A stretch of DNA of 64,000 bases from the NCBI GenBank assembly GCA_002415085.1, contig DIBV01000016.1, positions 86,517 through 150,516 of the forward strand, read 5' to 3'. The stretch comes from Arsukibacterium sp. UBA5043 (lineage in GTDB: Bacteria > Pseudomonadota > Gammaproteobacteria > Enterobacterales > Alteromonadaceae). The notes under the pieces were generated by a model. It made no database searches, had not been told where the DNA came from, and worked only from the letters and a program-made list of their open reading frames with translations. Made by a program: the position numbers and the translations under genes. Positions 3,800 to 46,783 of this stretch are shown one piece after another. Positions within the stretch are counted from its first letter, which is position 1. Each line of letters starts with the position of its first letter.

Positions 3800-7959
<4,160 letters not shown>

Positions 7960-12345: not shown

Positions 12346-12350
12346 GATAG

Positions 12351-26620: not shown

Positions 26621-26697
26621 TTATTTTATATCACAAGATTGATGCGAATTAGCATAACAATGCAAAACAATACTTTTTTTCTGGACATAGTACATCG

Positions 26698-26952: not shown

Positions 26953-26972
26953 GATTTTCTCTTTCCTCAAGT

Positions 26973-27015
26973 TTTCTGAGTACTCACTCAGAAAGCAGGG
27001 AGCTATCCCTGCTTT
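26973..27015 (-). other. Two overlapping hairpins between precursor and immunity candidate
   Basis: TTTCTGAG/CTCAGAAA (26973-26994) and AAAGCAGGG/CCCTGCTTT (26992-27015) are perfect inverted repeats that share three bases, so they compete. No T run follows on the minus strand. A transcript-stabilising or partial attenuation role after the precursor gene is possible. Confidence 0.5.
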
Positions 27016-27033
27016 AAAAAATATATTTGAGTA

Positions 27034-27414: not shown

Positions 27415-27466
27415 AGTATCTCTCCTTGAGATGCTTTTAAGTTTAAAGGTTTGCTCTGTTTCAGAG

Positions 27467-30356: not shown

Positions 30357-30405
30357 CTGGCAGCCATAACCGGCTGTCAGGCCAGTTTAGCTTGTGGCAA
30401 ACTGG
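30357..30405 (+). other. Tandem hairpins in the leader of the ABC exporter operon
   Basis: CTGGCAGCC/GGCTGTCAG (one G-U, 30357-30380) and CCAGTTT/AAACTGG (30382-30405) form two adjacent inverted repeats shortly before the ATPase start. No T tract follows. They could be an operator or a leader structure. Confidence 0.4.
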
Positions 30406-30435
30406 AGCGATTCTAACCACAAGCAGGTTGAGCAG

Positions 30436-31128
30436 ATGATTACGGCGAAAGCCCTTTATAAAAACTTTGGCAGTGGCGATAGCCAGGTACAGGCGCTGCG
30501 TAATGTCAGCCTGGACATTGCTGAAAACGAATTTGTTGCCGTGATGGGTAGCTCAGGTTCAGGTAAGTCGACTCTGATGAATATTCTTGGTTGCCTGGAC
30601 ACGCCAAGTGCCGGCCAATATCAACTGGCAGGCCAGGTCATTGGCCAGTTGGATGATGTCAGCCTGTCGGCGATGCGTAATCAGCATATTGGTTTTATTT
30701 TTCAGTCGTTTCACTTATTACCCAGACTTACCGCTGCCCAGAATGTGGCATTGCCATTACGCTACACTGATATTGCCCCGGAGCAGGCTATCGCCCGGGC
30801 CAATGATTTGCTGGATCAGGTGGGGCTGGGCCATCGCAAAGACCATAAGCCCCATGAAATGTCAGGTGGTCAGCGCCAGCGCGTGGCCATTGCCCGGGCT
30901 CTGGTAAACCGGCCTAAAGTGATTTTTGCCGATGAACCTACCGGCAATCTGGATAGCAAAACCTCCAAAGAGATCATGCAGCTGCTGTGTGACTTACACC
31001 AGCAGGGCAATACTATTGTTATGGTCACCCATGAAGATGAAATCGCTGCCTATGCCGGCCGCGTGATCCGGATGCGTGATGGTCAGATAACGGAGGACAG
31101 CGCATGTTCAAACGCACGTTCAGCATAG
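30436..31128 (+). CDS. ABC exporter ATP-binding protein (MacB/LolD type)
   Basis: This 230-aa ATPase powers the permease encoded at the end of the same operon. Motifs are complete: GSSGSGKST (Walker A), the Q loop FIFQSFHLLPRLTA, MSGGQRQRVAIARAL (signature) and VIFADEPTGNLDSKT (Walker B), with the TGNLDS ending typical of the MacB/LolD/FtsE class. The ATG at 30436 gives the normal length; a GTG at 30394 would add 14 residues without family similarity. Its 3' end overlaps the first adaptor by 25 bp. Confidence 0.92.
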   Translation: MITAKALYKNFGSGDSQVQALRNVSLDIAENEFVAVMGSSGSGKSTLMNILGCLDTPSAGQYQLAGQVIGQLDDVSLSAMRNQHIGFIFQSFHLLPRLTAAQNVALPLRYTDIAPEQAIARANDLLDQVGLGHRKDHKPHEMSGGQRQRVAIARALVNRPKVIFADEPTGNLDSKTSKEIMQLLCDLHQQGNTIVMVTHEDEIAAYAGRVIRMRDGQITEDSACSNARSA

Positions 31129-32087
31129 TATTTCTGGCTGTCGGCCAGTTAAGTTTCAGTGCCTTCAGCACCGCGGACACCACCGGCAATAGTGAGTTAC
31201 CGTTACTACTCACCGGAACCTTACAATCAGCTGACCGCCAGAGTGTGGTTGCCCCGATGAGTGATAACTGGCGGGTACAGGTGCAATGGCTGCAAAATGA
31301 AAGTGAGCCGGTGAAAACCGGCGATTTGATTGCAGTATTTGACGCTGGTAATACCCAGGCCCAGATTGAACAGTTGAAAAGCAGCTTAGTTAACCATGAA
31401 GAGCGGCTAAATCAGTTGAAAAGTGAGCATAAACAAAGTGTGATGGAAGCAGAGTATGAGCTGAATCGCCGCCAGCTGCTGCTGGAAAAAGCCGGTATCG
31501 ATGCCGGCGTACCTAAGGCAAATTTAAGCTTATACGACTTCGAGCAATATCAACTGGAACAAAAGCGGGCGCGCACGGAAGCCAGCAAGGCGGCAGAACA
31601 ATTAGCCGTTGCCAGGATCACCGCCGATGCCGCATTAACCAAGCAACAGTTGCTTATAAAACAAACCCAGGCTGAGCTAACGGACGCTGAAAATGTGCTA
31701 AGCCGGATGAGTGTTTACGCTACCCAGGATGGCAATATCAGTTATGGCAACCACCCCTGGTATGGTACCAAAATATATGCCGGCGTTACGGCGCAGCCGG
31801 GTTGGCTGATTGCTGAACTGAACCGCAAAGACAATTTATATATTGAAGCCTGGGTGCATGAAACGGATTTACCGCGCCTGCAGCAGGCCGATGCGCTGCA
31901 GGCACGGTTTGATATTGCCCCCGACCAACCTTTCACTGTTACTCTCAGTGAGTTAGCTAATCAGGGCGAGAAACGCCAGAGTTGGGGTAATGCCCTGTAT
32001 TATAAAGCTTCATTTACCGCCGCCCAGCTGCCTGTTACCAGTCCGATGCTGGGTATGGGCATGTTAATAGAGGTAGCGGCAAAGTGA
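31104..32087 (+). CDS. Periplasmic adaptor 1 of the MacB-like exporter
   Basis: The 327-aa protein is an HlyD/RND-type membrane fusion protein with a cleavable Sec signal (about 1-25) and no lipobox. A lipoyl-like beginning (GTLQSADRQSVVAP), a coiled coil (about 85-195) and beta-barrel-like parts follow. It is unusual in beginning the mature chain almost directly with the lipoyl strand. It overlaps the ATPase gene at its start and the next adaptor by GTGA at its end, which points to coupled translation. Confidence 0.85.
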   Translation: MFKRTFSIVFLAVGQLSFSAFSTADTTGNSELPLLLTGTLQSADRQSVVAPMSDNWRVQVQWLQNESEPVKTGDLIAVFDAGNTQAQIEQLKSSLVNHEERLNQLKSEHKQSVMEAEYELNRRQLLLEKAGIDAGVPKANLSLYDFEQYQLEQKRARTEASKAAEQLAVARITADAALTKQQLLIKQTQAELTDAENVLSRMSVYATQDGNISYGNHPWYGTKIYAGVTAQPGWLIAELNRKDNLYIEAWVHETDLPRLQQADALQARFDIAPDQPFTVTLSELANQGEKRQSWGNALYYKASFTAAQLPVTSPMLGMGMLIEVAAK

Positions 32088-33115
32088 CTTTATCAAACCC
32101 AAAACCATACCAGTACTGCCTTAGCGCGGTATTATGCACCTTGCTGCTGAGCGCTTGTCAGCCGGAACGCGTCCAGGATAGCACCAGTGCTGTTGTCAGC
32201 TATGTCCGTGCCACCGGCGAGTTAACCGCCGCTAATTCATTTAAAGCCTCGCCACCCAGCGTCAGCAATATGTGGCAATATAATATTAAGCAGTTAGCAC
32301 CGGAAAGCAGCATGTTAACCGAAGGCACCGTAGTGGTGGCGTTTGACGGCCAGCGGCTGACCGACGAGCTGAATAACAAAAATATTGAACTGAAAAGTGC
32401 CGAGCAGGAACTGGCCAACCGTTTGCGCAGCGACGAGCAGACATTTGAAGAGTTGAAACTGACCCTGGCCGAGCGGAAAATGGAATATGATCGCGAGCAA
32501 CGTAAAGCCGAGATTGTTGACCAGTCGACCTCTGCTAATGACCGGCGTAAAGCCCAAATAGACTTTACCATTGCCGACAACCAATACCAGCTGGCTCAGG
32601 CGAGGCTGGCCAGCCATCAGCAACAGCGCCAGGCTGAAGAGCAAATGCTGCTGGCAAAAGTCAGTCGCTTGCAGTCAGAGGTTAGCCAGCTGCAACGCAA
32701 TATCGCCAGTATGCAGGTTAAAGCCCCCTTTGCCGGTGTCATGGTCTACAGCATTGGTTTTGACGGCGAGAAATTTTCAGTTGGCGACAGTGCCCAGTTT
32801 GGTCAGCCGGTTGCCGAAGTTAGCCAGCTGGACAGCCTGTATGTTAAAGCCGAAATTGACGAGATCGATTTAAAACAGCTGCAACCAGGATTAGCGGTTG
32901 AAGTTACACTGGATGCTTATCCGGAGCGACGATTTAATGGCGTACTGCAAAGCCTGGGCAACGCAGTGCGGGATAAATCTAACGACAACCTGCGCCGGGT
33001 AGTCGATGCCAGTGTCAGCCTGACCAATCTGGATACCGAGCTGATGCGCCCTGGTATGTCGGCCCGTCTTAATATCAGTCTGGGCAACCTGCAGGGAGAG
33101 CCGAATGAAAACTAA
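32084..33115 (+). CDS. Periplasmic adaptor 2 of the MacB-like exporter, lipoprotein
   Basis: The 343-aa protein has a lipoprotein signal peptide ending LLLSAC and the HlyD-type order lipoyl strand, coiled coil (about 95-205), lipoyl strand (VKAPFAGVMVY) and beta-barrel. The start codon is GTG at 32084, overlapping the previous stop as GTGA. It overlaps the third adaptor by 11 bp. Three different adaptors in one operon are not usual for MacAB, where a single MacA suffices. Confidence 0.87.
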   Translation: MTLSNPKPYQYCLSAVLCTLLLSACQPERVQDSTSAVVSYVRATGELTAANSFKASPPSVSNMWQYNIKQLAPESSMLTEGTVVVAFDGQRLTDELNNKNIELKSAEQELANRLRSDEQTFEELKLTLAERKMEYDREQRKAEIVDQSTSANDRRKAQIDFTIADNQYQLAQARLASHQQQRQAEEQMLLAKVSRLQSEVSQLQRNIASMQVKAPFAGVMVYSIGFDGEKFSVGDSAQFGQPVAEVSQLDSLYVKAEIDEIDLKQLQPGLAVEVTLDAYPERRFNGVLQSLGNAVRDKSNDNLRRVVDASVSLTNLDTELMRPGMSARLNISLGNLQGEPNEN

Positions 33116-34304
33116 GTGTTATCGACTGCTGCCGGCCACAGTTACCTTTGGCCTGCTCGTTTTATCGGGCTGTGCTGAGCCCGAGCTACAGGTACCGGTA
33201 TATAAAGTAGCACCCGCCACTCTGGTGCATAAGGTGCATACTGAAGGTGAATTATTTGCGGTAAATTCGGTAACTATTAATGCGCCGCGTAATGTGCAGG
33301 GCCCACGTTTTATTGCCAGCTTGGCCCGCGAATACACCAGGGTTGAACCTGGTGATGTGGTGGTAACTTTCGATGCCACTCAGCTGGAGCGCTCGCAGCG
33401 TAAAGCCAGCTCCAGCCTTAGCAGTGTGCTGGCCGACGAGCAGCAAAAACTGGCTGAACAAAATAACGAGCAAAAAGGCCTGGGGCTGGATCAATCTCTG
33501 ATAGCGCAGGAATTCCGTTTTGCCGATCAGTTCAGTATTGACGATGTGCAAATTCGTTCAAAGCTGGAAATTCTTGATTCGATGCAAAATAAAGAATATC
33601 TCGGCGAGAAAAAACAATATCTGGGCTGGCAGGAACAAAGTTTCAGTCAGCGCAGTAGTGGCGAGCTAGAACTGCTTCAGCTGCAACGCGGCCAGCAACA
33701 AAGCCTGCTGCAACAGGCCGAAACTGGTTTAGCCGCGCTGGAAGTCAAAGCGCCACACGCTGGTATTTTGCTGTTCGATACCAACTGGCGCGGTGAAAAG
33801 CCAGAAGTAGGCGGCATGGTGTTTCCTGGCTTTAAAATAGGCAGCATTCCCGATCTAAGCCTGCAGCATCTGAAATTACAGGTTATCGAACAAGAGGCCA
33901 TTGGGCTGGCAGCAGAGCAGCGGGTGACATTTTATCTGGCCGCCTGGCCCGATACGGTGCTTAACGGTAAAATTGTTTCCGTTGGCGCGATAGCGCAATC
34001 GCGCGAGCGACGCGACCCGCGTAAATATATCGAAGTCATTGTCGCACCCGAGCAACAAGACCCCCGCTTTATGCCTGGTATTAAAGCTATTGCCACTCTG
34101 TGGGTAAACGAAAAACCTGAAATATTAAAAGTACCACTGCAAGCCATTTTTAGTGAACAACAGCAGCTGTATGTTTACAAACGCAATGGCAGCACTTTTG
34201 TCAGACAACCCATCAGTCTGGGTAGTAAAAGCCTGAGCCATGCTGAGATCAGCAGTGGTATCGCCGCCGGCGATGAAATTGCCCTTGTTAACCCGGAAAG
34301 CTGA
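33105..34304 (+). CDS. Periplasmic adaptor 3 of the MacB-like exporter, lipoprotein
   Basis: This 399-aa protein has a lipoprotein signal ending VLSGC, two lipoyl half motifs (the second VKAPHAGILLFD), a Gln-rich coiled coil (about 100-205), a beta-barrel and a membrane-proximal domain at the C-terminus. It is the longest of the three adaptors and the only one with the full RND/MacA-like C-terminal domain. It ends 4 bp before the permease ATG. Confidence 0.88.
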   Translation: MKTKCYRLLPATVTFGLLVLSGCAEPELQVPVYKVAPATLVHKVHTEGELFAVNSVTINAPRNVQGPRFIASLAREYTRVEPGDVVVTFDATQLERSQRKASSSLSSVLADEQQKLAEQNNEQKGLGLDQSLIAQEFRFADQFSIDDVQIRSKLEILDSMQNKEYLGEKKQYLGWQEQSFSQRSSGELELLQLQRGQQQSLLQQAETGLAALEVKAPHAGILLFDTNWRGEKPEVGGMVFPGFKIGSIPDLSLQHLKLQVIEQEAIGLAAEQRVTFYLAAWPDTVLNGKIVSVGAIAQSRERRDPRKYIEVIVAPEQQDPRFMPGIKAIATLWVNEKPEILKVPLQAIFSEQQQLYVYKRNGSTFVRQPISLGSKSLSHAEISSGIAAGDEIALVNPES

Positions 34305-34308
34305 AGCC

Positions 34309-35544
34309 ATGAAACATACACCTCTGATTAAAGACACCCTGGCCGAACTGGCTCAGCATAAATTGCGCACTTTTCTGACCCTGCTGGGTATGATCTTCGG
34401 CGTGGGCGCTGTGATTGCGATGCTGAATATCGGTGAGGGTGCTGAACGTGAAGCATTAAAAACCATTGAAACCATGGGCTTGCGCAATCTAATTGTGGAA
34501 GGCCGCAAATTTGATGAAAAAACCCTGCAAGAGCAGCGCAAGCACTCGCTGGGCCTGAACCAAAGCGACATTGATGCTGCCGTAGCCACCATTCCCGGCG
34601 TAACCTCTTACAGCGCTGAGCGCACCCTGGATACCTACGGCATCTACGGCCACAAGGGCAAAAGTGATGGTATTGCGCTTGGGGTGTCACCCAGTTATAT
34701 GGCGTTAAGTAAGCTGCAGTTTGTTGCCGGTCGCAACTTTACCGAACAGGAAAATCGCTACGCCGCCCAGGTGGCCATTTTAGGTGCCCGGGTGGCGCAA
34801 AGCTTATTTCCCGATGGCGATGCGCTTGGTAAGCCAGTAAAGGTTAACCATGTCTGGTTACAAGTTGTGGGTGTACTGGCCGAGCCCTATGCCGGCAGTA
34901 ATGAATTTCAGGGCATTAAACTGGGCGGCGAGCAAAATCAATTGTTTATGCCACTGAACACCGCCCAGACCCGCTTTAAAGCCGAGCCGCTAACTGCCGA
35001 GCTTACCTCATTCCGGCTGCAACTGAGCGAGGATGCCAATAATGCGTTAAGCGCCAGGGCGCTGGATTTTTTGCTAAAGCAGCGCCATAACGACATCGAC
35101 GATTACAACATTATTGTGCCGGCTGCTTTACTGGCACAGCAAAAGCAAACCCAACAGATATTCAATATTGTGATGTCGTGCGTCGCTGGCATTTCACTAT
35201 TAGTCGGCGGCATTGGCATTATGAATATCATGCTGGCGACGGTACTGGAGCGTACCAAGGAAATTGGCCTGCTACGGGCCATCGGTGCCACCCGGCGCGA
35301 TATTAAAATTCAGTTTGTGGCCGAAAGCTTTGCTATCGCCATTCTTGGCGGCCTGCTCGGTATCGTATTTGGCATCTTGCTGTCGGAGCTTATCGCCTTT
35401 TACTCCGACTGGGCCGTTAGCTGGTCACTGTTAGCAATTGGTTTGTCATTTAGTATCTGCGCCCTGATTGGCGTGGCCTTTGGCGTGTATCCGGCCATTA
35501 AAGCCTCAGAACTGGACCCGATAACGGCGCTGCAAAGTGAATAG
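34309..35544 (+). CDS. MacB/FtsX-type ABC permease
   Basis: The 411-aa permease has one N-terminal transmembrane helix (about 20-42, with the FLTLLGMIFGVGAVIAML motif), a large periplasmic domain (about 50-285) and three C-terminal helices, including the SLLVGGIGIMNIMLATVLER and EIGLLRAIGATRRDI segments of the MacB mechanotransmission family. The ATG at 34309 is chosen over upstream in-frame codons that fall inside the preceding adaptor. It is the last gene of the operon and converges on the lanthipeptide operon. The substrate may be a peptide, siderophore or toxin. Confidence 0.9.
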   Translation: MKHTPLIKDTLAELAQHKLRTFLTLLGMIFGVGAVIAMLNIGEGAEREALKTIETMGLRNLIVEGRKFDEKTLQEQRKHSLGLNQSDIDAAVATIPGVTSYSAERTLDTYGIYGHKGKSDGIALGVSPSYMALSKLQFVAGRNFTEQENRYAAQVAILGARVAQSLFPDGDALGKPVKVNHVWLQVVGVLAEPYAGSNEFQGIKLGGEQNQLFMPLNTAQTRFKAEPLTAELTSFRLQLSEDANNALSARALDFLLKQRHNDIDDYNIIVPAALLAQQKQTQQIFNIVMSCVAGISLLVGGIGIMNIMLATVLERTKEIGLLRAIGATRRDIKIQFVAESFAIAILGGLLGIVFGILLSELIAFYSDWAVSWSLLAIGLSFSICALIGVAFGVYPAIKASELDPITALQSE

Positions 35545-35560
35545 CTAAGTGTAATAATTT

Positions 35561-35632
35561 GCCAGTAGCACTATAATTCGGTTTTACAGGACGTACTGGC
35601 AACATATCAATCGTAAGTCGCTAATAGTGCTA
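35561..35632. other. Interlaced inverted repeats between two convergent operons
   Basis: GCCAGTA/TACTGGC (35561-35600) and TAGCACTAT/ATAGTGCTA (35566-35632) are perfect inverted repeats whose left arms overlap, lying in the gap between the exporter permease and the second C39 transporter. Neither is followed by a T run, so termination is only a possibility. Confidence 0.4.
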
Positions 35633-37714
35633 GCCAAGTTCTATTACCCTATCAACAGAGGCTATGGTTTCCGGGCGATGAGCAATAACAATTCTTGTGA
35701 TGTTTAAATTTTTAATGGCATTACTGACATAGGATTCTGTTTTAGTATCCAGATGACTGGTAGCTTCATCCATAAATAAAATGCGTGGTTGGCGATAAAG
35801 TGCTCTGGCCAACAGGATCCGCTGTTTCTGCCCTCCAGATAGGGCCGATCCCATATCGCCAATAAGGCTGTTATAGCCCATTGGCATCTGCTCGATATCC
35901 TGGTGCACCGCAGCCATTTGAGCACACTCCAGTACTCTGGCCATATCTGGCTGCTCTTCAAAAAATACAATATTGTCGCGAATAGAGCCCGACAACAGCT
36001 GGTCATCCTGCATGACGGCTGCAATTTGTCGACGATAATTGGCCAGCCCCAGCTGTTGCAGAGGCATACCATCAACCAATACTTCACCGTCACTGGGTAG
36101 CAGTAACCCCAGCATGATTTTCATCAACGTAGTTTTGCCACAACCTGAAGGACCGACCAAGGCTATAGATTCACCTGCCTGAATCGTCAGGCTGACATTT
36201 TGTAATACAGGGCGCGTTGTATCGCTATAAGCGAATTGAATACCCCGAAGTTCCATATTACCAGCCAGTAGTTTCTGTTCACGCTCTTGCTCCGGATGTA
36301 CATTTTCCTTTGTTGTCAGTGCGATATCACCTAAGCGTTCAAAGTGAAGACTAAGCATTCTAAACTCAATCAGTTTTTCAATTAGCCGCGCCATCCGATC
36401 CATAAACTGAGTTTTGTAAGCCATAAAAGCAAACAGCATACCCGTGCTAAAGCCACCTGCCAGAATTAGATGGGCGGCCAGATAAACAACCAATATATTT
36501 TCAATACCAAAAAGTAGCCGGTTCACTGTTTGATATGAGATATTGAATACGCCAAGCCTGATAGATTGATTTGTCGCTTCAACAAAATGATGTTGCCAGA
36601 TACTTTCCCGCTTAACCTCAGAACCAAATAGTTTTATGGTTTGAATACCGCGAACAGTCTCCATAAAATTTGAATTCTCTTTCGCCAAGGCAAGAATTTC
36701 TTGTTCTGATACAGCCCGCAGTGAATGATACATCGCCAATCTGAATAGGGCGTAAACTAACACCGCGGCCAACACTACCATGCTTAACATCGGGCTATAA
36801 ATCAGAATAACCACCAAAATGGCCATTGCCATCAAGCCATCAATTAATGCTTCAATCATGCCTGTAGTCAGTAGTTCTCTAACCTGTCGCAGCGAACCAA
36901 AACGCGATACCACGTCACCCATATGGCGCTTTTCAAAGTAATTTAATGGCAAGCGCACTAAGTGGTGGAACAGATTGCCGGACATTTGAATATTCATTAA
37001 ATTGCTAAAATGCAGCATGACAAAACCCCGCAACGCGCTTGTAGCAATTTCAAACAACAACACTAATGAAAAACCTAAGGCCAACACCAACAGCAGACTG
37101 GTGTCATTACTTAATATCACATCGTCAATTACCAGTTGCATATAATAAGGAGCGATCAGGGTGAACACCTGCAGCAATATTGACAGCGTAAATAGCAAAA
37201 CAAGGGAGCGTTTAAGTCCAGAAATTTTTGACCAGAAATTTGATAACCCTAACCTGCGTTGTCCCTCTTTCAGTTTAAATTCATTTGTAGGTGTTAACTC
37301 CAGAACGACGCCAGTAAAATGTTTTCCTGCCTCTGCCAGGCTCAGTTTGCGGATTCCGAATGCAGGATCTTGGATGACAATATGCTTAGCGTGTACTGCT
37401 TTAAGCACCACAAAATGGTTGAGATCCCAATGCAAAATGCAAGGAAGCTTTAAGGCTGGCAGATCTTCTAATTCGATACGCAACGGCCGGGATGTTAGCT
37501 GTAGTCTTTCGGCAAAATTCATCAAATCAAGCAGCGTGCAACCTTCAATCGATAGTGAAAACTTCTGCCGCAATTCATTTAAATTCGCTTTATAGCCGTA
37601 GAAGCCAGCCACCATCGCCATACAAGCCAGTCCACACTCAGCGGCTTCTGTCTGATGGATCATGGGCAAGCGGCTGCCTTGCCAAAAAGTCAGTTTTTCG
37701 GTCAATGCCTGCAC
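35630..37714 (-). CDS. C39-peptidase ABC transporter of the lanthipeptide cluster
   Basis: The 694-aa protein is predicted to remove the lanthipeptide leader and export the core. The C39 domain (about 1-140) has Cys27 in EAAECGLAC, His100 in NHFVVLK and Asp116 in IQDP. The membrane domain (about 165-455) and the ATPase with GPSGCGKTT, LSGGQKQR and ILFMDEATSHLD follow. It begins with GTG at 37714, sharing one base with the hlyD stop; this start gives a normal pre-peptidase segment. It is clearly paralogous to the exporter of cassette 1 but ends about 25 residues earlier, directly after AHRPETI...VIELG. Confidence 0.93.
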   Translation of the reverse strand: MQALTEKLTFWQGSRLPMIHQTEAAECGLACMAMVAGFYGYKANLNELRQKFSLSIEGCTLLDLMNFAERLQLTSRPLRIELEDLPALKLPCILHWDLNHFVVLKAVHAKHIVIQDPAFGIRKLSLAEAGKHFTGVVLELTPTNEFKLKEGQRRLGLSNFWSKISGLKRSLVLLFTLSILLQVFTLIAPYYMQLVIDDVILSNDTSLLLVLALGFSLVLLFEIATSALRGFVMLHFSNLMNIQMSGNLFHHLVRLPLNYFEKRHMGDVVSRFGSLRQVRELLTTGMIEALIDGLMAMAILVVILIYSPMLSMVVLAAVLVYALFRLAMYHSLRAVSEQEILALAKENSNFMETVRGIQTIKLFGSEVKRESIWQHHFVEATNQSIRLGVFNISYQTVNRLLFGIENILVVYLAAHLILAGGFSTGMLFAFMAYKTQFMDRMARLIEKLIEFRMLSLHFERLGDIALTTKENVHPEQEREQKLLAGNMELRGIQFAYSDTTRPVLQNVSLTIQAGESIALVGPSGCGKTTLMKIMLGLLLPSDGEVLVDGMPLQQLGLANYRRQIAAVMQDDQLLSGSIRDNIVFFEEQPDMARVLECAQMAAVHQDIEQMPMGYNSLIGDMGSALSGGQKQRILLARALYRQPRILFMDEATSHLDTKTESYVSNAIKNLNITRIVIAHRPETIASVDRVIELG

Positions 37715-38955
37715 TACATCTGTCCTTTTATACTGTAAATCGGATCAAACAGCCATTGCAGCAAACTCCGGCGCTCGGTAATAACATCGCCATCTAGCGT
37801 CATGCCAGCCCTTAACGGTAGCTCGCGGTTGTAAGCCTGTATCTGCTGCGAGCTCAGTTGCACCCGAACTCTATAACTTGGCTCCTGGAGAGTAATGTCC
37901 GCAACTTCTTCAGGCATGAGTACCGTGTGGCTTACTTCATTCACCCGCCCTAATTGCACACCGAAACGCTCATAAGGAAAAGCGTGAAAACGCAGCCGGA
38001 CATCCTGGCCGGGTTCAATAAAAGCAACGGCACTTGTGGGTACATAAACAATGGCTTCTAATTCAGCGCCCTCTGGAAGCAAGCTTAAAACAATACTACC
38101 AGCGTTAATGAAATAACCTGGCCCAGGCAAAATACCACTGATCGTCCCCGCTTTAGGTGCTCTGATCATGCTGCTTTGTTCATGCTGCAGGCGTGTAAGT
38201 TGATTCCGAAGTTCTGAAATTTGGTTATCTAACTGTGCCACGGTAGCTTGATGGTCTATTGGTAGCTGTTTTTGCAGGCTTTGCTGCTGCTTTAATTGTT
38301 CTTCCAGCGTCAGTCGCTGACCTTGCAACACTTGCTCCTGCTGCTGCAATGCCAGCAACGTATCTTGTTGCCGGCTTAACTCCAGATTCGAAATAAAACC
38401 GGTACCTGAAAGCTGGGAAACCTGCTTAACTAACCGTTGATTTAACTCCAGCCGCTGTTGAAAAGTCGCTTGCTGCTGCAATACCTGGTTAAGCTGCAAC
38501 TGCGCACTGACATTACGCTCTATAATATCTTGCTCGCGGATACGCTGACTGGCGATTTCCTGTTGTTTTTGCCGTTGCAGATTTGACAGAATAGCGCCGA
38601 GCTCCTTTTTTAGTGATGCATTCAGCTCAGTTTGTTCAGATGAAAAGTGCTGCATAGTTAGCTCTATCAGAGGTTGGCCCGCTTTCACCTTCTCCCCTTC
38701 TTTAACCAGAAGCTTTTGTACAGTGCCTGCCTGAGATGTTTGAATCCGAATTACACCTTGCTCAGGCTGCAAAACGCCAAACACAACCGTTTTGCGCGCA
38801 TAACTTCCACTGAGTAGAAAAATGAATGAGCAGACCACAACAAAGAGGATCAAACCAGTTAGCCAGTAAAAAGCAGGTACCTGCACCAGGCTAACCTCGC
38901 CCTGCATTCGCGACGTTTGCTGATTGAGCACTTGTTCACGGAATAGAGATTTCAT
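37714..38955 (-). CDS. HlyD-family membrane fusion protein of the lanthipeptide cluster
   Basis: The 413-aa adaptor has one transmembrane helix (about 30-50), lipoyl halves (GTVQKLLVKEGEKVKAG and APKAGTISGILPGPG) around a long Gln-rich coiled coil (about 105-270), and a beta-barrel ending in the LLQWLFDPIYSIKGQM tail. The cassette 1 adaptor ends in a very similar LLAWLFEPILSLKGRL, so the two adaptors are paralogues. It should bridge its C39 exporter to a TolC-like channel. It starts 104 bp after lanB and shares one base with the exporter start. Confidence 0.92.
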   Translation of the reverse strand: MKSLFREQVLNQQTSRMQGEVSLVQVPAFYWLTGLILFVVVCSFIFLLSGSYARKTVVFGVLQPEQGVIRIQTSQAGTVQKLLVKEGEKVKAGQPLIELTMQHFSSEQTELNASLKKELGAILSNLQRQKQQEIASQRIREQDIIERNVSAQLQLNQVLQQQATFQQRLELNQRLVKQVSQLSGTGFISNLELSRQQDTLLALQQQEQVLQGQRLTLEEQLKQQQSLQKQLPIDHQATVAQLDNQISELRNQLTRLQHEQSSMIRAPKAGTISGILPGPGYFINAGSIVLSLLPEGAELEAIVYVPTSAVAFIEPGQDVRLRFHAFPYERFGVQLGRVNEVSHTVLMPEEVADITLQEPSYRVRVQLSSQQIQAYNRELPLRAGMTLDGDVITERRSLLQWLFDPIYSIKGQM

Positions 38956-39059
38956 AGAGATTTAATCGTGTTCAACAGAAATTTGCCCTTTGCCATCCTA
39001 CCAGAAGGTTCAGCGACACACGCAATGATTAACCCATTCAGGCGTATTACTGCCATGCG

Positions 39060-42000
39060 CTAATGCAACTCTTGGCGGGACTGACAAGATAGATAGTATC
39101 GACGAAGAAAATCGTACACCACGAACTCCTGCTCCCGACCATAAGCTTTAAAAATACGATTATTAAACATATGCAGTAAAGAATGCAGCAAAATGTCCAA
39201 CGTACAGCTAAGTTGATTGCTATTTTCTAGCGCTAAAAGCTGCAACACTGCTGGCTGCAATTGCTGCAAAAATTGTTGCCGGACTTTCAACATTTGTGGT
39301 CTCGGCTGTTCAGCAGAACCATATTCCATCGCCTGAAAGTCCTGGCGCAGCTGCTGCTGACAATCACGAAATTTCAAACCCAATTGACTACGCAATTTGG
39401 CGTGTTCCTGAAACTCCTGCCCAAAGCTTTCCCGTAAACCGCTTATCAATTTTAGCTTTTGGGACAAGTCATACCCAAAGGCATCCAGCATTGTATCAAT
39501 TCCCAGCAGGGCCATGCGCCATCGCACTGATTCTCCATGTTCAGAAATTAATTGCAGACTACTGAGAACAAACTCACTGTCAGCTTGAAATATTTGTTCA
39601 CAGTACAGCATCGCAATGTCACCACCATAACGCTCGACTTCTCGCTGGTAAGTGAATACTTCAATTTTACTGATCCGCTGGCAACTCAGCCATGACGCTA
39701 ACTGCTTTTGTAAAAGGGGAAGTAATTGACCGCACAGCGCCGCAGGCTCACCAAATAATCTCAACCTCAAGTGCCAATCTGGATCGGCATAACGAATGAA
39801 AAACCAGCTTTTAACAAGCCCCTGCTGACAATACTGGCGCAGGAACGGTGTTAAACTTTCAATAAGCACTAGCTCAGCGGTACTGTTTGCGGCATAGATT
39901 TTCAGGCTTAGCCATTCAGAACCGGGTGCAAAGTAGCGCTGCACAGTCATATCAAGCTGTTTTGCCGGATTCGGATGTAACGTTTCGAATGGAGCAGCCT
40001 GAGGATTCAACATGGGAACAAGAATTTCATGGGCAAAATTCCCTTCGTCGTTCACTACTGCACTTTCATATTGCATCGCCAACGACTCTTTTAGCTTAAT
40101 CCGCGGTTGCCCTGCTGTTTCGCATAATAACAGGTCGATCATAGCCGGATTATGTAAATCGACTATCAAGACATTATCGCTAATCGCATAGCAAACATAA
40201 CGGCAAAGCTGGTATCGTTGCGCAATAGCATCCCATGCTTCTCGCTGCCATTGATTATTTACCACTAACGCTTCCAGCATACTGCGATCTATTTGCCATT
40301 GCGCTTCGTGTAAAATCACATTATCCAGTTGTATCCGCGGCTGATAATCCATCTGCGAAAAGTTTGCAGGGCTGCTAAAGTGCGGCAATCGTCCTTGCTG
40401 ATGTTGTAGAACGCATAGAAAACGGTATACGCCGAGACTTCGACCTGAATAGTTATGGGCAGACGTTAATCGAGGAACAATTTGCTTATTTAAACGCTTT
40501 GACCATAACTTAACCTGGCCTGCTTCGACAAATACATAAAGGTCCTGCACAGGGATTTGTCTTTCATCAGGTGAAACCGTATCCGCCAGAAAAACAATTT
40601 CATAATTTCGCAAAGGCGGCCTGGCTATAACATTACCAGGGCGGCCATCGGGCATATGCACAACTTCAGCAAAAATCACCGTTGGCGATAGCGCCTCTTC
40701 AGCGGCCAAGTATTGACGGACCTGCTGCAGGAGCTCACTATTTAGGTGGCAAAAGCGCCCCAGTAAATTTGCACCGGAGGGACCGGAGCAACCATGAAAG
40801 TGGATTAAGGGCTGCCTGTTGTCATCTAAATAATAACTTATATTAAGTGCATATGATGACGGAAGCTTCTGCCAAAGAGCTACTCTATCGGTATCTTTTA
40901 GAATCTCGTTACTGCTCAGCTGAATACAATTCACTCTTCCCTGGTGCTGCATGGCATTTACCACAAGTTGCTCTAATGGGTTTTGAGGCTGGCCCGGGGA
41001 CTCATGATGGCGGTTGGCAATATTTATTCCGGCAAGTAATGGCGTTTCATAGCCGGTTTCTGCCGAAAACGGAATGCCACTCTCTTCATCAAGCAACGGT
41101 AACAATGGTACGAATTGTCCTTCGAATCGCTGCTGGAAACTAGTAACAAATGCCTTAAAAGGACTATCTCTTTTCCCTGACTGGGCTTTTAAAGCAAGTA
41201 CAGTGTTTTCCAATATAGTCAGGAGGCTGCGATCGAGTTGGCAGTGCTTCATCGCACGCCAACTATCTGTTTGAAAAAGCTTATTTTCCGAAACAGGATA
41301 TGGCAATTGCTTTAATTGAGTTACTACGGTTTGATAATCGTTTGGCTCTGCAGCACCTTTTTGGTCAAGGACTTCCAGCTGGTCTAATACCGCCTGCAAT
41401 AACTCTCCATCCCGCTTGTTTTCTACTTGCAATAACTGCCGTACAAATGCCTGATCTGGCTGCCCACTGGTGAGTGGCAATTTCAACTCAGCAACCAAAA
41501 CTTGCTCTTTAATCAGCTGCTGGATGTAGTTTTCGATGTCTGCTTTGCTCGCCTCTGGATATTCCTGACCGAATAACTGTGCCAGTTTAGATTCCGATTG
41601 CCCCTCTCCAGATAGGCGAAGCATAGATTCTAAAGCTTCATCCAGCTCAACCGAGCTAAGACGATAGTGACGCTGTGAAGATTGGTAAGATTCAATATAG
41701 TGTAAATATGAACCCAACCGATATAAGGTAGTGTTGGGTTTATAACATAACTGCCGTCTACCTTCCTCGCTTTGCGCCCATTGCTGTTGAATCGTACTCA
41801 GATAAAACATATCCAGCCGGGTTTTGCGGCTATCTTGTTGCAAATCTTCAGGCTTGAAATTACTTGAGTCAGACAAACTGCCGACGGCGACTCCGGAAAA
41901 CAAGCCAAAAGGTGTCGGCCTGCTGCACATCCGAATCAGATATTTCAATAATGCAGTCGTTACCTTGCGACCTGATTTGCTTTCAGGCTTATCGCGCCAG

Positions 42001-42191
42001 ATTTCAAGCCGTTCAGCTAAGGAAGGGCTAGCTAAATAAATAGCCTCTAAAATACCAGGAGTGGCAAGCCAGCCCGACAAGTAATCGTTCAAAGATAGCG
42101 CTGAACCAGGAAGATCTTTGATTTTATTCAAGCTCAGCCGTGGTACCCGAACTACAATAAAATCAGCCAAACATTCAGTTTTACTGCCCAT
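39060..42191 (-). CDS. lanB: Full-length LanB lanthipeptide dehydratase
   Basis: LanB enzymes glutamylate Ser/Thr of the precursor using glutamyl-tRNA and then eliminate glutamate to give Dha/Dhb. At 1043 aa this is a single-chain enzyme with both halves. The glutamylation domain (about 1-720) has the family motif RPTPFGLFSGVAVG at 91-104. The elimination domain (about 755-1040) has IRYADPDWHLRLRL (about 799-812), EVERYGG (about 851-857) and NNRIFKAYGREQE near 1010. The ATG carries an AAAGGT site and lies 24 bp after lanC. Proteobacterial full-length LanB genes beside a C39 exporter are uncommon in my knowledge. Confidence 0.93.
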   Translation of the reverse strand: MGSKTECLADFIVVRVPRLSLNKIKDLPGSALSLNDYLSGWLATPGILEAIYLASPSLAERLEIWRDKPESKSGRKVTTALLKYLIRMCSRPTPFGLFSGVAVGSLSDSSNFKPEDLQQDSRKTRLDMFYLSTIQQQWAQSEEGRRQLCYKPNTTLYRLGSYLHYIESYQSSQRHYRLSSVELDEALESMLRLSGEGQSESKLAQLFGQEYPEASKADIENYIQQLIKEQVLVAELKLPLTSGQPDQAFVRQLLQVENKRDGELLQAVLDQLEVLDQKGAAEPNDYQTVVTQLKQLPYPVSENKLFQTDSWRAMKHCQLDRSLLTILENTVLALKAQSGKRDSPFKAFVTSFQQRFEGQFVPLLPLLDEESGIPFSAETGYETPLLAGINIANRHHESPGQPQNPLEQLVVNAMQHQGRVNCIQLSSNEILKDTDRVALWQKLPSSYALNISYYLDDNRQPLIHFHGCSGPSGANLLGRFCHLNSELLQQVRQYLAAEEALSPTVIFAEVVHMPDGRPGNVIARPPLRNYEIVFLADTVSPDERQIPVQDLYVFVEAGQVKLWSKRLNKQIVPRLTSAHNYSGRSLGVYRFLCVLQHQQGRLPHFSSPANFSQMDYQPRIQLDNVILHEAQWQIDRSMLEALVVNNQWQREAWDAIAQRYQLCRYVCYAISDNVLIVDLHNPAMIDLLLCETAGQPRIKLKESLAMQYESAVVNDEGNFAHEILVPMLNPQAAPFETLHPNPAKQLDMTVQRYFAPGSEWLSLKIYAANSTAELVLIESLTPFLRQYCQQGLVKSWFFIRYADPDWHLRLRLFGEPAALCGQLLPLLQKQLASWLSCQRISKIEVFTYQREVERYGGDIAMLYCEQIFQADSEFVLSSLQLISEHGESVRWRMALLGIDTMLDAFGYDLSQKLKLISGLRESFGQEFQEHAKLRSQLGLKFRDCQQQLRQDFQAMEYGSAEQPRPQMLKVRQQFLQQLQPAVLQLLALENSNQLSCTLDILLHSLLHMFNNRIFKAYGREQEFVVYDFLRRYYLSCQSRQELH

Positions 42192-42215
42192 TTTATACCT
42201 TTCTTATTATTATTT

Positions 42216-43409
42216 TCAGGCTAGCAGTAGCGCGTCAGCCCAATCCGGTGCAATACCTTGTCTGGCGAGTAAACAAAGCCCAATTCCCGAATAACCTTCT
42301 AACAAACCTCTGTCCTCAACCAGCTGGCCAGCTTTATTAGCATAAAAGCCCTTCTTGTTATCTTTTTTTATCCGGGCTAAGGTATTTTCTAACCAGTAAT
42401 CTGACGCAACTTTAAACTCAGGCTTAGGGATGATGTCGTTAAGCAACTGAAATATTAACATTAACCCAGAACTGCCATGGCAAATCCCAGCGTCATGGAC
42501 CATAGCACTATCTTCTCTGCGCTGCGCCGCATGAACACCTAAGTTGCAAGCAAAATCTATTAAATCCTGGCGTCCCAAGGCTTTTCCGGCTCTTGCCAAG
42601 GTAAGTGCGATAGTGAGGTCACCGTAGCACCATCCTAAACGACTTGGCTGATTCTCTTCAGCACAATTAGAAAAAAGGCTGCCTGTCTTTCCAGCGGGTA
42701 GCTGTTGTTGAATCAACCAGTTACACCCGTCTGACACCAACTTCTTAGCCTTCTGACCAGAATCAGGATGAGCAACTGCAGGTAATAACGCGCATATTAT
42801 TGCGGGTACACCATGCGCTAGTCCCAAATTGTGTTCAGGTTTGTCGGGATTCGCTTTATCAAAGCGATAAATTGACGTAGCGGGTGTTGACCAAGTACAG
42901 GTATCGGCGCTTTTGTATATTGCGCATTCTGAGAGTCGATTGATAATAATCCGGTAAAGCTCCACCCCACGTTCGTGCCGGAGGCGCCGCTCTGCGAAAA
43001 CAGCAATTCCGCTTAGCCCTAAAACAAATTCAATCTCACCGTGCCACACTGGGGTCTGTTTTAATACCGATGTGATGTATTCCTCTATCTCTTGATTAAT
43101 CTCAGGATCATAACCTTCATTTTGTTCAGTAAGCAGCAACTCCATTAACCAGCCATAACCTGCTAAACCATAACCAAAATTAATATTATTTCCCATTAAA
43201 GGGATGCTATCTATCAATTGATCGAGTTGCAGTTGGAATTGGGATGTTTCAAGCTGATATAGCGATGATTTCGCCGCATACCAATGAAACAGAAGATGTC
43301 CTGGCGTGCCCGTAAGCAATGATAAATTTTTTGTTATAGAAGCATCAGTAGATTGCGTAGCATCAATTAGCCTTTGAATAACACTCTGAATTTCAGATTC
43401 ATACTTCAA
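42216..43409 (-). CDS. lanC: LanC lanthipeptide cyclase
   Basis: LanC catalyses addition of Cys thiols to dehydrated residues, forming lanthionine and methyllanthionine rings. The 397-aa protein is an (alpha/alpha) toroid with the zinc ligands Cys261 (WCYGD), Cys310 and His311 (CHGSSG), and the catalytic-site GLAHG (His199). The remaining G-rich repeats (GYGLAGYGWL, LGLSGIAVF, EGYSGIGLCLLA) are typical. No ATG is available near the start; TTG at 43409 with an upstream TGAGAA is the best choice, which suggests weaker translation than the precursor. It lies 190 bp after the precursor gene. Confidence 0.94.
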   Translation of the reverse strand: MKYESEIQSVIQRLIDATQSTDASITKNLSLLTGTPGHLLFHWYAAKSSLYQLETSQFQLQLDQLIDSIPLMGNNINFGYGLAGYGWLMELLLTEQNEGYDPEINQEIEEYITSVLKQTPVWHGEIEFVLGLSGIAVFAERRLRHERGVELYRIIINRLSECAIYKSADTCTWSTPATSIYRFDKANPDKPEHNLGLAHGVPAIICALLPAVAHPDSGQKAKKLVSDGCNWLIQQQLPAGKTGSLFSNCAEENQPSRLGWCYGDLTIALTLARAGKALGRQDLIDFACNLGVHAAQRREDSAMVHDAGICHGSSGLMLIFQLLNDIIPKPEFKVASDYWLENTLARIKKDNKKGFYANKAGQLVEDRGLLEGYSGIGLCLLARQGIAPDWADALLLA

Positions 43410-43553
43410 AATAATTCTCAGAACTTACGTCTTGTTAATCACGGCGTTACCTAACGCGAATCAAATAATGTTAAATTATATGTACATTATTCGCTATAAC
43501 TTACTTTTAAAACCCGCTTTGTAACCGTCCAGGTTATAGTCACTGAGCAAAAG

Positions 43554-43588
43554 CTGACATGCCTACATTGTGAACGTAAGCATGTCAG
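43554..43588 (-). other. Possible attenuator between lanthipeptide precursor and lanC
   Basis: CTGACATGC/GCATGTCAG is a perfect 9-bp stem lying 12 bp after the precursor stop codon. On the minus strand it is followed by CTTTTGC, a short T run. This would suit partial termination giving more precursor than enzyme mRNA. Confidence 0.55.
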
Positions 43589-43599
43589 ATACTAATTAC

Positions 43600-43788
43600 T
43601 TAGTATTGCTTACAAGTGTAAACAGTGGTGCAGTCATTGAAAGACATCAGCGTCAAAGTACCACCACCAGCTACCTGAGGAGTCAATTCGTTAGGAAGCA
43701 CCTTGTTGTCAGGCGTCATATCCTGAGGCAATACTTTGTTATCATTAGATAAATTTGCAAGCTCAACTTTTTTGAAATTTAATTTCAT
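43600..43788 (-). CDS. lanA: Lanthipeptide precursor (LanA)
   Basis: The 62-aa product has a leader (about 1-42) ending QVAGG and a 20-residue core GTLTLMSFNDCTTVYTCKQY. The core holds one Ser, five Thr and two Cys; Ser49-x3-Cys53 and Thr55-x3-Cys59 would give two equal-sized rings, leaving Thr44, 46, 54 and 58 as possible Dhb. The leader contains an 11-residue tandem repeat, DNKVLPQDMTP then DNKVLPNELTP (16-26 and 27-37), and an LNFKKVEL segment near the N-terminus that could serve as the LanB recognition element. GG with a Val at -4 suits C39 cleavage, though the E-L pair is one residue out of register with the usual consensus. The ATG at 43788 has an AAGGA site; the longer upstream reading is rejected. 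Confidence 0.88.
   Translation of the reverse strand: MKLNFKKVELANLSNDNKVLPQDMTPDNKVLPNELTPQVAGGGTLTLMSFNDCTTVYTCKQY
43678..43743 (-). repeat. 33-bp tandem duplication inside the lanthipeptide leader
   Basis: Two adjacent 33-bp units (43678-43710 and 43711-43743) agree at 23 of 33 positions by direct comparison and encode the two DNKVLP-containing 11-mers of the leader. The protein repeat is better kept than the DNA. Confidence 0.85.
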
Positions 43789-43807
43789 AACATGTTCCTT
43801 CTTATAA

Positions 43808-43855
43808 TTAGTTCTAAAATATTTATGTTGCAAATCGCTAAGCAACAAGAACTAA
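43808..43855 (-). other. Nested inverted repeat in the lanA leader
   Basis: TTAGTTCT and AGAACTAA flank an inner TGTTGC/GCAACA pair, giving an interrupted hairpin just upstream of the lanA ribosome site and reaching into the predicted -10 region. It could be an operator or an mRNA-stabilising leader. Confidence 0.5.
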
Positions 43856-43882
43856 TAATACACAAATTTAAATCACTGGCAA
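43855..43882 (-). promoter_or_regulatory. Predicted sigma-70 promoter of the lanthipeptide operon
   Basis: On the minus strand TTGCCA (43882-43877) and TATTAT (43860-43855) are separated by 16 bp, five of six matches to each consensus hexamer. A transcript starting near 43848 would have a 60-nt leader before lanA. Confidence 0.5.
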
Positions 43883-44026: not shown

Positions 44027-44626
44027 CTAATATTTAACACTACAGCCATAAGGACGGGTAACGGCCGGGTCCGGTGTATTGCCGGCCAGTACGGCTTTGG
44101 CGGCGTTGGCAAAGTACGGCGTAGCTTTGGCAATATCATCCACTTTAGCGGATGGGATACTGTCGATGCCGCCCATATACTGCAGTACACCGTTTTTATC
44201 GATAACATACATATGTGGCGTGGTCTTCGCGTCATACGCTTTGCCCATAACGCCCGTCTCATCGAACAGAATTGCGGTGGGCGCCGCCTTGCGATTGCTG
44301 GTTAGCTCTGCTGCTTTGGCGCTGTCTACATGGCCCTGCTTGCCCGGTGCTGACGAGATCACACTAAGCCAGACTACGTCTTTGGCCTGCATATCTTTTT
44401 GCAGCTGCTGCATATTGCCGCTGTAATGTTTGACCACAAACGGACAGTCGTGATTAGTCCATTCCAATACCACGTTTTTACCGGCAAAATCTTGCAGGCT
44501 ATGGCTTTGGCCATTTGCATCTTTCACCGTAAAATCCGGCGCTGGCTGGCCAACTTGTGGCGCCGCAGCAAGTGTAGCGGCAAAAAGCATGGCACCAGCG
44601 GAAACAACGAGTTTTGCTAATTTCAT
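44027..44626 (-). CDS. Periplasmic redoxin (AhpC/TSA-like thioredoxin-fold protein)
   Basis: The 199-aa protein has a Sec signal peptide (about 1-23) and a thioredoxin/peroxiredoxin-like domain beginning VGQPAPDFTVKDANG. The redox motif is TNHDCPFVVKHY, with a single Cys in place of CxxC; cis-proline lies in KTTPHMYVID. It starts 48 bp after the DsbD-like gene on the same strand, so it is a plausible electron acceptor of that reductase. The ATG at 44626 with AGGAG is used rather than a codon nine bases upstream. Confidence 0.86.
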   Translation of the reverse strand: MKLAKLVVSAGAMLFAATLAAAPQVGQPAPDFTVKDANGQSHSLQDFAGKNVVLEWTNHDCPFVVKHYSGNMQQLQKDMQAKDVVWLSVISSAPGKQGHVDSAKAAELTSNRKAAPTAILFDETGVMGKAYDAKTTPHMYVIDKNGVLQYMGGIDSIPSAKVDDIAKATPYFANAAKAVLAGNTPDPAVTRPYGCSVKY

Positions 44627-44674
44627 AGATATCACTCCTGTTGTGTGATTGATTACAACTTAATTGTTGGCAGC

Positions 44675-46783
44675 TTATTGCTGACTTATCGACTCAAATG
44701 TTTGCCTGAGAGTATCAGGTGTTAAAATTTGCGGCAGCACTTGTGGCGGCTGCCCTGGCCAGTACAACACGTATAGCGGCACACCATCACGCTGATACTG
44801 CTGCAAATAAGCAGTAATATCGCTGTCGCGGCGGGTCCAGTCACCCTTTAAGTAACTGACATTATATTGGCTGAGCGCTGCTTTGCTGCGCTCGGTATTC
44901 AATGCTACCCGCTCGTTTACCAGGCAGGTAATACACCAGTCGGCGGTCATGTTCACCAGTACCGGTTTACCCTGCTGGCGCAGTGCACTGAGTTTATCAG
45001 CAGACCAGCTTTGCCAGTGTTGCGCCTTATTATCGGCGTGCGAACTAATATTTGCTTCAGGGTGCAGCTTAGCCCCCTGCCACAGAATAACGAGCGCCAG
45101 TAATAACAAGCCCAGTGCCGTCAGCTTGTTGAACCCGCCAGCACCCAGTTGCACCCTGCCCCATAGCCATATCGCTGCAGCCAACGACACCATACCAATC
45201 ATTAATATTGCCATAGCATCGATACCGGCCTGGCGGCCAAATACCCATAGCAACCACACTGCACTTAAATAAAGGGGCCAGGCCAACAGCTGCTTTAGCG
45301 TATCCATCCAGGCGCCGGGTTTGGGTAACAGCCGTGCCAGCGCCGGAATATATGCCAGCAATAAAAATGGTAATGCCATGCCAAGACCCAGCGCGGCAAA
45401 TACCAGTAAAGCGACGAGCGGACTTTGGGTTACTGCATAACCGAGCGCGGTGCCCATAAACGGCGCCGTACAGGGGCTGGCGACCACCACTGCCAGTACT
45501 CCGGTAAAAAATGAGCCTTTGCCGCCACTTTTTGCAGTGAGAGCACCACCGGTATTCATTAAGCCCAGGCCAAACTGCACCAGGCCGGATAAGCTTAAGC
45601 CCAGCGCCAGTAATAAATAGACCAGCAGAGCAACCAGTAACGGGCTTTGCAGCTGAAACCCCCAACCAATCACGTTGCCGGCCGCACGAAGTGCGATCAG
45701 CAAACCGGCTAATGCCAGAAAGCTTAGTACCACCCCTGCCGCATAAAATAAGGCGTCACGGCGCTGAAGTTGCCGTTGCTGGCTGTTAGCAGCGATACTT
45801 AGCGCTTTGAGCGACAATACCGGAAACACACAAGGCATTAAATTCAGGATCAGGCCACCACCGGCGGCCATCAGTAAAATTAGCCAGAAGCTGTTTGGGC
45901 TGAGCGTGCCACCCGTCACCAGAATCTCGGTAGTACCGCTGGCCAGCAGATCCTGTTGCCGCTGCTGAAAATAAACGGTGTAACCCTGGCCAGTCGCATC
46001 GACCAGTACAACTTCGGCCTGCTCTGGTGCACTGCTAAAGTAGGTATTTAACGCCTGTTGCAATAATAGGCGGTCGTGTTGCGGTATCAGCTGCTGCGGT
46101 GCAGCATGGTCAACTAACTCGCCAGCGGCCACAAAAAACGCCACTGGCGGTTGAGGCAGTTGATCATTTAACACGGCTGAGAACGCGCCACCACTTATAC
46201 TGTAGTCGCCGGTAAAGCCGGTATCAATGGGCAGGGCCGCACGGGCCTTGTTAAATAGTGGCTGCTGGCTGGTTGCCAATTCGGTCTGGTCGGCAACGGC
46301 TATTGTCAGTTCAAAGCTGGCATCAGCCGGAATGCAAATTTCCTCACATACCAACCAGTCAACATCAGCCATGATGGTGAGCGTGTCGTGAGTATAATCA
46401 GGCGGTAGAGTGATATTGCTCAGTAACAACGTCTGGCCGGCGTAACCATAATTAACCAGCGGCGGTATGAGAAAAGCTTCAGGCGTTGGCCACTGAATAT
46501 CAGCAGTCTGGACCCCGGCAGGCACCTGCCAGTTAATAATGGAAGGCAACCCCGAGTCGCCGGGGTTTTGCCAGTAGGTATGCCAGCCAGGGTCGGGCTC
46601 AAAATGCAGCAGCACAGCAATAGTCTGGCCTGGTGCAACCGTGCGGTACTCGCTTACCAGCTCAGCTTTAATGTGCTTAGCTTGCTGCCAGCCGCTGCTG
46701 CTGGCATGCAATGAAAAACTTGCCAGTATGCTGCTCAACGCCAAAGCGGCGCTCAGTAGCAACCCGCTACGTAATCGGATCAT
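44675..46783 (-). CDS. DsbD/ScsB-like thiol:disulfide interchange protein
   Basis: This 702-aa protein should carry electrons from cytoplasmic thioredoxin across the inner membrane to periplasmic partners. It has a signal peptide, an N-terminal periplasmic beta domain (about 30-280; redox pair in WLVCEEICIP), a DsbD-type membrane domain with the two key cysteines in LMPCVFPVLSLKA and VASPCTAPFMG, and a C-terminal thioredoxin-like domain with ADWCITCLVN. The large N-terminal domain resembles ScsB more than classical DsbD. The ATG has an AGAGGT site. The adjacent redoxin is the likely client. Confidence 0.9.
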   Translation of the reverse strand: MIRLRSGLLLSAALALSSILASFSLHASSSGWQQAKHIKAELVSEYRTVAPGQTIAVLLHFEPDPGWHTYWQNPGDSGLPSIINWQVPAGVQTADIQWPTPEAFLIPPLVNYGYAGQTLLLSNITLPPDYTHDTLTIMADVDWLVCEEICIPADASFELTIAVADQTELATSQQPLFNKARAALPIDTGFTGDYSISGGAFSAVLNDQLPQPPVAFFVAAGELVDHAAPQQLIPQHDRLLLQQALNTYFSSAPEQAEVVLVDATGQGYTVYFQQRQQDLLASGTTEILVTGGTLSPNSFWLILLMAAGGGLILNLMPCVFPVLSLKALSIAANSQQRQLQRRDALFYAAGVVLSFLALAGLLIALRAAGNVIGWGFQLQSPLLVALLVYLLLALGLSLSGLVQFGLGLMNTGGALTAKSGGKGSFFTGVLAVVVASPCTAPFMGTALGYAVTQSPLVALLVFAALGLGMALPFLLLAYIPALARLLPKPGAWMDTLKQLLAWPLYLSAVWLLWVFGRQAGIDAMAILMIGMVSLAAAIWLWGRVQLGAGGFNKLTALGLLLLALVILWQGAKLHPEANISSHADNKAQHWQSWSADKLSALRQQGKPVLVNMTADWCITCLVNERVALNTERSKAALSQYNVSYLKGDWTRRDSDITAYLQQYQRDGVPLYVLYWPGQPPQVLPQILTPDTLRQTFESISQQ

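Follow-up and report, generated by a model that had tools for sequence, protein, structure and literature searches.

Passages of Walker et al. 2020 (PMC7268733) describe class I lanthipeptide precursors of Bacteroidetes that carry an LxLxKx5L leader motif and a double-glycine (GG) site, often with a C39 protease in the cluster. In gammaproteobacteria, part of a review assigns two Thalassomonas groups, the viridisins and the thalassomonasins, to the type I lanthipeptides (PMC11433236; reports 10.1021/acssynbio.2c00480 and 10.1111/jam.15491), a passage of PMC12819058 names pseudorosins A to C of Pseudoalteromonas (report 10.1021/acschembio.3c00135), and a passage of PMC9993889 mentions expression in E. 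coli of the Pseudoalteromonas citrea lanthipeptide PciA. A class I region of P. viridis BBR56 is described, in an excerpt of PMC11015633, as comprising LANC_like, both LanB domains, a peptidase_C39, an ATP-binding cassette (ABC) transporter and a membrane fusion protein (MFP) subunit. We analyzed a 64,000-nucleotide stretch of contig DIBV01000016.1 of Arsukibacterium sp. UBA5043 (here called the window), in which a first-pass annotation had read a minus-strand set of precursor, LanC, full-length LanB, HlyD and C39 transporter. This set was confirmed by Pfam domains and by the presence of the checked catalytic residues. Gene anatomy also supports the combination that the annotation had proposed, namely, class I chemistry with GG cleavage and HlyD-assisted export without a LanP protease, but not the novelty claimed for it. 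We conclude, with a probability of about 0.9, that the window carries a complete operon for a class I lanthipeptide with a GG leader and C39 export, on the grounds of its genes, their order, domains and catalytic residues, the conservation of the leader and the linkage found in relatives.

The lan operon consists of five genes, all on the minus strand, running from 43788 to 35630 of the window in the order LanA, LanC, LanB, HlyD and C39 ABC transporter, and all five reading frames are intact:

43600..43788, minus strand: LanA precursor, 62 aa (open reading frame [ORF], leader alignment with 12 relatives' precursors, orthologous core in the related locus L025)
43554..43588, minus strand: stem-loop of 16 pairs between lanA and lanC (terminator-like site and fold)
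42216..43409, minus strand: LanC cyclase, 397 aa, predicted TTG start (PF05147, E 1.8e-34)
39060..42191, minus strand: LanB dehydratase, 1043 aa, glutamylation and elimination domains (PF04738, E 1.4e-127; PF14028, E 3.6e-61)
37714..38955, minus strand: HlyD-type periplasmic adaptor, 413 aa (PF13437, PF16576)
35630..37714, minus strand: C39 peptidase/ABC transporter (LanT), 694 aa (PF03412, E 1.8e-36; PF00664, PF00005)

The complete operon is clearly present and not due to chance.

Both dehydratase domains of a class I system are thus joined in one LanB protein. Its residues aligned to NisB R87, R784, R786, E823 and R826 are invariant in 38 of 38 aligned rows, the window included, and the equivalent of NisB R83, which is R87 in the window LanB, is likewise an arginine in all 38. 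We take these six NisB residues to serve glutamylation and elimination. The histidine of the LanB motif LLHMFNNR, which the NisB alignment stops short of, is invariant in 38/38 rows as well. In LanC, which also aligned to 8byk, the zinc ligands C261, C310 and H311 are found in all 37 aligned rows (window row included). With a precursor that has a leader and a core of Ser, Thr and Cys, the remaining parts expected of a class I system appear to be in place. The LanM dehydratase domain that would mark class II is absent from the Pfam matches of the operon, and the LanM model matches LanC by its cyclase end only, under the cut-off. On this basis, LanB would glutamylate Ser and Thr of the LanA core with glutamyl-tRNA and then eliminate the glutamate, and LanC would link each of the two Cys to a dehydrated residue. 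Small or split LanB-like proteins of other ribosomally synthesized and posttranslationally modified peptides perform glutamylation-only or non-lanthionine chemistry, and LanB and LanC could in principle form such a system. Since LanB is full length, the elimination-domain residues whose loss the first-pass annotation had named as refuting are present in all 38 rows, the zinc ligands of LanC are equally constant, and the core offers six Ser/Thr and two Cys, we regard this as extremely unlikely.

The LanA leader ends in TPQVAGG and is followed by a predicted 20-residue core, GTLTLMSFNDCTTVYTCKQY, containing the six Ser/Thr and the two Cys. The calculated monoisotopic mass of this core is 2288.016 unmodified, 2251.995 after two dehydrations, the minimum for two rings, and 2179.953 after six. 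The precursor matched no NCBIfam or Pfam family. In an alignment of 13 precursors, the one of the window and 12 chosen from those found at loci of homologous LanBs, 11 columns are invariant: M1, L3, K7, L13, S14, D16, P21, T36, G41, G42 and one core Cys. As the GG at the leader end is thus constant (13/13) and in register with the relatives' precursors, the cut is predicted after TPQVAGG, where the C39 domain of the transporter would cleave once it had bound the modified precursor. With this cut, the residues at -4 (Val) and -12 (Leu) suit a peptidase-containing ABC transporter (PCAT). The leader motif LNFKKVELANL reads LxFxKx5L, one change from LxLxKx5L, and the 12 aligned relatives have L at the changed position. 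The product is likely to be a class I lanthipeptide of about 20 residues, released by a double-glycine cut during export, and may have an antibacterial role. Relaxed searches found no precursor beside lanB in several loci, among them L031 to L038.

The C39 residues Q21, C27, H100 and D116 of LanT do not vary among the 30 aligned rows, the window included, and the domain resembles the solved double-glycine protease domain 6mpz (E 1.1e-23). LanT is 54.7% identical to a transporter of the Shewanella MR-1 megaplasmid, which adjoins HlyD and two bacteriocin-like peptides, and 43.6% identical to E. coli CvaB. In a careful C39 tree of 29 rows, 25 rows including the window LanT and the microcin-type exporters were separated from 4 rows with a support of 100/100. 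The smaller side held two Bacteroidota PCATs and the LanTs of L053 and L054. The tree kept 29 of 35 rows, four fragments and two long rows having been dropped, and the 35 held 22 of the 30 aligned LanTs; it contained few references, CvaB not among them, and its flagged long branches meet inside each side (L058 with L086, L051 with L078). Within these bounds, the window exporter groups with gammaproteobacterial microcin-type transporters and not with the two Bacteroidota PCATs sampled. An exporter of the class II lanthipeptide kind was dropped after this tree, and the first-pass annotation's likening of the export to class II LanT was therefore imprecise. As in CvaAB-type exporters (E. coli CvaB, Shewanella MR-1), a C39 ABC transporter of the microcin-type clade is present, CvaB itself standing outside the tree, and it is paired with HlyD as in Shewanella. 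In contrast to LanA, the Shewanella MR-1 peptides are annotated as bacteriocin-like and not as lanthipeptides, and the colicin V exporter, too, carries a GG peptide that is not a lanthipeptide. The modified LanA would leave the cell via LanT, HlyD and an outer-membrane protein of the TolC type whose gene would lie outside the window; TolC-like PF02321 gave 10 domain matches elsewhere in the genome. We also observed that L053 and L054, although members of the family, have a LanT of the Bacteroidota type, while the other LanTs in the tree lie on the microcin-type side.

A second C39 export locus with its own GG peptide lies in the window at 24515-28717 (minus strand), 9 kb from the lan exporter:

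28717-27467, minus strand: HlyD
27414-27034, minus strand: GG-leader Gly-rich peptide, 126 aa, no Pfam or NCBIfam match
26970-26698, minus strand: small protein, 90 aa, possibly an immunity protein
26620-24515, minus strand: C39 ABC transporter

This locus looks like one for a microcin-type bacteriocin. Its transporter is 54% identical to LanT, both fall in the same 25-row clade as the Shewanella MR-1 exporter, and in one Thalassomonas-like genome a transporter of the LanT clade (L081) lies away from lanB. LanT might thus be a microcin-type exporter with more than one client, carrying further GG peptides of the genome, such as the unmodified Gly-rich one at 27034-27414, and vice versa. Such sharing would be compatible with a complete class I operon, but we consider it unlikely, as each peptide has its own linked C39 transporter and HlyD and the two HlyDs are only 34% identical.

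We then examined how widely this arrangement occurs. Of the 395 genomes sampled from the family, 36 gave a LanB match (E up to 1e-20), spread over 11 of 52 genera, compared with 2 of 369 genomes in a class-wide draw, the genome of the window being counted each time. The comparison of loci covered 36 stretches surrounding LanB, each 20 kb at most, from the 35 other genomes, without the additional partial LanB match in G073. A quick LanB tree of 34 rows, made of 30 of the 38 aligned LanBs and 4 references and with long branches flagged, gave a clade of 29 rows (Shimodaira-Hasegawa-like approximate likelihood ratio test, 99), 28 from the host's family and one from another family of the class, separate from 4 Bacteroidota rows and 1 Cupriavidus row. 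The first-pass annotation had proposed checking whether C39 transporters accompany LanB homologues, and this was indeed the case in 28 of the 36 stretches, with LanC, LanB, HlyD and LanT all found at >50% coverage in 25. LanT was missing from L043 to L047 and from L055 to L057. L055 is a 5-kb contig, L057 has LanB matches in pieces only, and the genome of L043 carries a C39 gene about 12 kb from lanB.

The loci L044 to L047 come from a Thalassomonas-like genus (g14). Their LanB is 44% identical to that of the window and their leader is of the same type, but the cores differ and neither a C39 transporter nor HlyD lies beside lanB in the fetched stretches. From precursor numbers, Cys counts (4, 2 and 2 in L044; 3 and 2 in L046 and L047) and core lengths, we infer that they are viridisin/thalassomonasin-type clusters. 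Two counts speak against this identity, since we found 31 residues to GG and counted 26 where passages of the review (PMC11433236) give 29 for thalassomonasin leaders and 25 for VdsA1.

Three points weigh against a C39-exported GG-leader system. First, hydrophobic positions -4, -7 and -12 are underlined for PCAT leaders in a figure legend of PMC10885120, and the LanA leader has Thr at -7. Second, no outer-membrane partner was found within the window. Third, L044 to L047 lack a C39 transporter and HlyD in the fetched stretches despite the same leader type and a related LanB, so that the linkage is not universal; their genomes carry C39 genes elsewhere, L081 among them.

Homologues consistently accompanied by LanP had been named beforehand as grounds for rejecting the reading. 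No S8 (PF00082) match lay within 10 kb of lanB in any of the 8 genomes searched, within the reach of the contigs; in G185 and G110, the contig carrying lanB ends before 10 kb on one side. In these genomes, the homologues gave no such grounds. The window itself has an S8 peptidase match at 57848-58579 (minus strand), 14 kb from lanA, which we did not take as LanP, and in G063 an S8 match in an ORF of similar length lies on a different contig from lanB. A regular-expression search for subtilase motifs, made with no positive control, found none. With C39 present and no S8 near lanB, the operon differs from the nisin type, in which an S8 LanP lies in the cluster and the transporter lacks C39.

Compared with the Bacteroidetes clusters of Walker et al., as far as the passages cited describe them, the window likewise has LanB and LanC, a leader one change from LxLxKx5L, a GG cut site and a C39 protease. 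It differs in its host, a gammaproteobacterium, in a transporter from a different clade than the two Bacteroidota PCATs sampled, and in a LanB only 26 to 33% identical to the six Bacteroidota plasmid matches listed (H1 to H5 and H8). The Pseudoalteromonas lanthipeptides, likened here by their partial descriptions only, are of the same class I type. The first-pass annotation had noted that some Bacteroidetes class I clusters share parts of this logic, which the passages of PMC7268733 bear out. Its statement that such a system is little described in gammaproteobacteria does not stand, as class I lanthipeptides of this class are published and, according to the excerpt cited above, a P. viridis region with C39 and MFP is in print. 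The gene combination is already described in kind, and the window cluster is an ordinary, intact member, although literature searches, as far as their listings went, showed no paper on this exact cluster. What it adds is a complete gammaproteobacterial cluster with a short two-Cys core whose predicted cut site and mass can be checked directly.

We next considered whether the operon could be decaying or silent. In the gap between lanA and lanC, one terminator-like site was found against a mean of 0.3 in shuffles, and the fold of 43500-43605 had a z score of -4.97, matched in 0 of 200 shuffles. The stem-loop is probably a partial terminator or stabilizer, which fits expectation because the precursor transcript should exceed the enzyme transcripts. 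The sequence AAGGA precedes the lanA start. Promoter-like sites around lanA numbered 3 against 2.3 expected, no better than chance, and the G+C content of the operon (35630-43788) is 0.446 against 0.502 for the remaining window, in line with transfer. An operon that makes no lanthipeptide would agree with the lack of a distinctive promoter-like site, with a G+C content suggestive of a mobile, dispensable island, and with a precursor-like ORF at 5826-6065 of the related locus L022, whose leader contains an in-frame stop codon (the next gene is alpha/beta hydrolase-like). In the window, however, the five ORFs are intact, the checked catalytic residues are present, and AAGGA and the stem-loop flank lanA, which makes decay or silence very improbable.

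The exchange of parts between relatives may be of more interest than the original claim. L022 and L025 belong to the Alkalimonas genus (g42, taken to be Alkalimonas; the family includes this genus, and the LanB relative L021 is a contig of an Alkalimonas metagenome-assembled genome) and have the same flanks. Identity is high in TlpA (94.6%), DsbD (92.7%), HlyD (94.2%) and LanT (97.7%) but only 67.8% in LanB and 57.0% in LanC; the biosynthetic genes thus seem to have been replaced in situ. Between the window and L024, of the same genus, identity falls from LanT (88%) and HlyD (84%) to LanB (67%) and LanC (37%). L025 harbors, at 9426-12735, two LanA-LanC pairs, whose LanCs are 44% identical, with one LanB and one exporter. 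The window LanA and one L025 precursor have in common an 11-residue leader insertion and an orthologous core (..SF.DCTT..CKQ.); the insertion resembles a tandem duplication (DNKVLPQDMTP-DNKVLPNELTP; 23 of 33 bases identical). In addition, a six-locus clade supported by LanB (99) was rejected by the LanC data (approximately unbiased test, P = 0.013, quick tree), the LanC tree holding 25 of 37 rows, with L024 and L026 as long branches, where a change of rate is possible.

Core similarity correlated with LanC identity given LanB identity (partial r 0.40, 12 units; 13 of 5,000 permutations reach it). Near duplicates of L028 and L045, L050 to L054 and loci in which no LanA was found were all left out of this test. 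We hold the correlation at moderate confidence, because the set is small, depends on where LanAs were found and consists of related units, and because three of the LanC rows form long branches. The L024 precursor, moreover, is separated from LanC, at the far end of its locus, and some of the typed cores are shifted by one Gly in their cut register. That LanC simply evolves faster than LanB was considered and fails in L027 to L030, which have a common core type and in which LanC is 91 to 95% and LanB 85 to 94% identical. We tentatively propose, at somewhat less than even odds, that the gammaproteobacterial systems are modular, with a conserved microcin-type exporter and leader chassis on which LanA-LanC(-LanB) cassettes are exchanged, each LanC being tuned to its own core, and with a fixed chromosomal site in one lineage. 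A literature search limited to titles returned none on such a cassette-exchange pattern. In the relatives, LanC diverges along with its core and the exporter and leader vary less, and this natural enzyme set would make it possible to ask if the ring pattern is decided by the cyclase or by the substrate.

Between LanB and HlyD, L025 also carries, at 3592-6238, a 327-aa protein with no Pfam match, another protein with a weak, sub-cut-off ChaN/Tiki match, and two short peptides, one with GG; this is perhaps another peptide sharing the exporter. An ATP-grasp enzyme, guessed for 3592-4575 of L025, had no Pfam match and is not claimed.

In the window, TlpA-like and DsbD-like genes lie upstream of the lan operon at 44027-46783. 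Downstream of the operon and convergent with it, a MacAB-like exporter occupies 30394-35544 (plus strand) and comprises an ABC ATPase, three adaptor-like proteins and an FtsX permease. Two of these adaptors and the permease also adjoin lan genes in L026.

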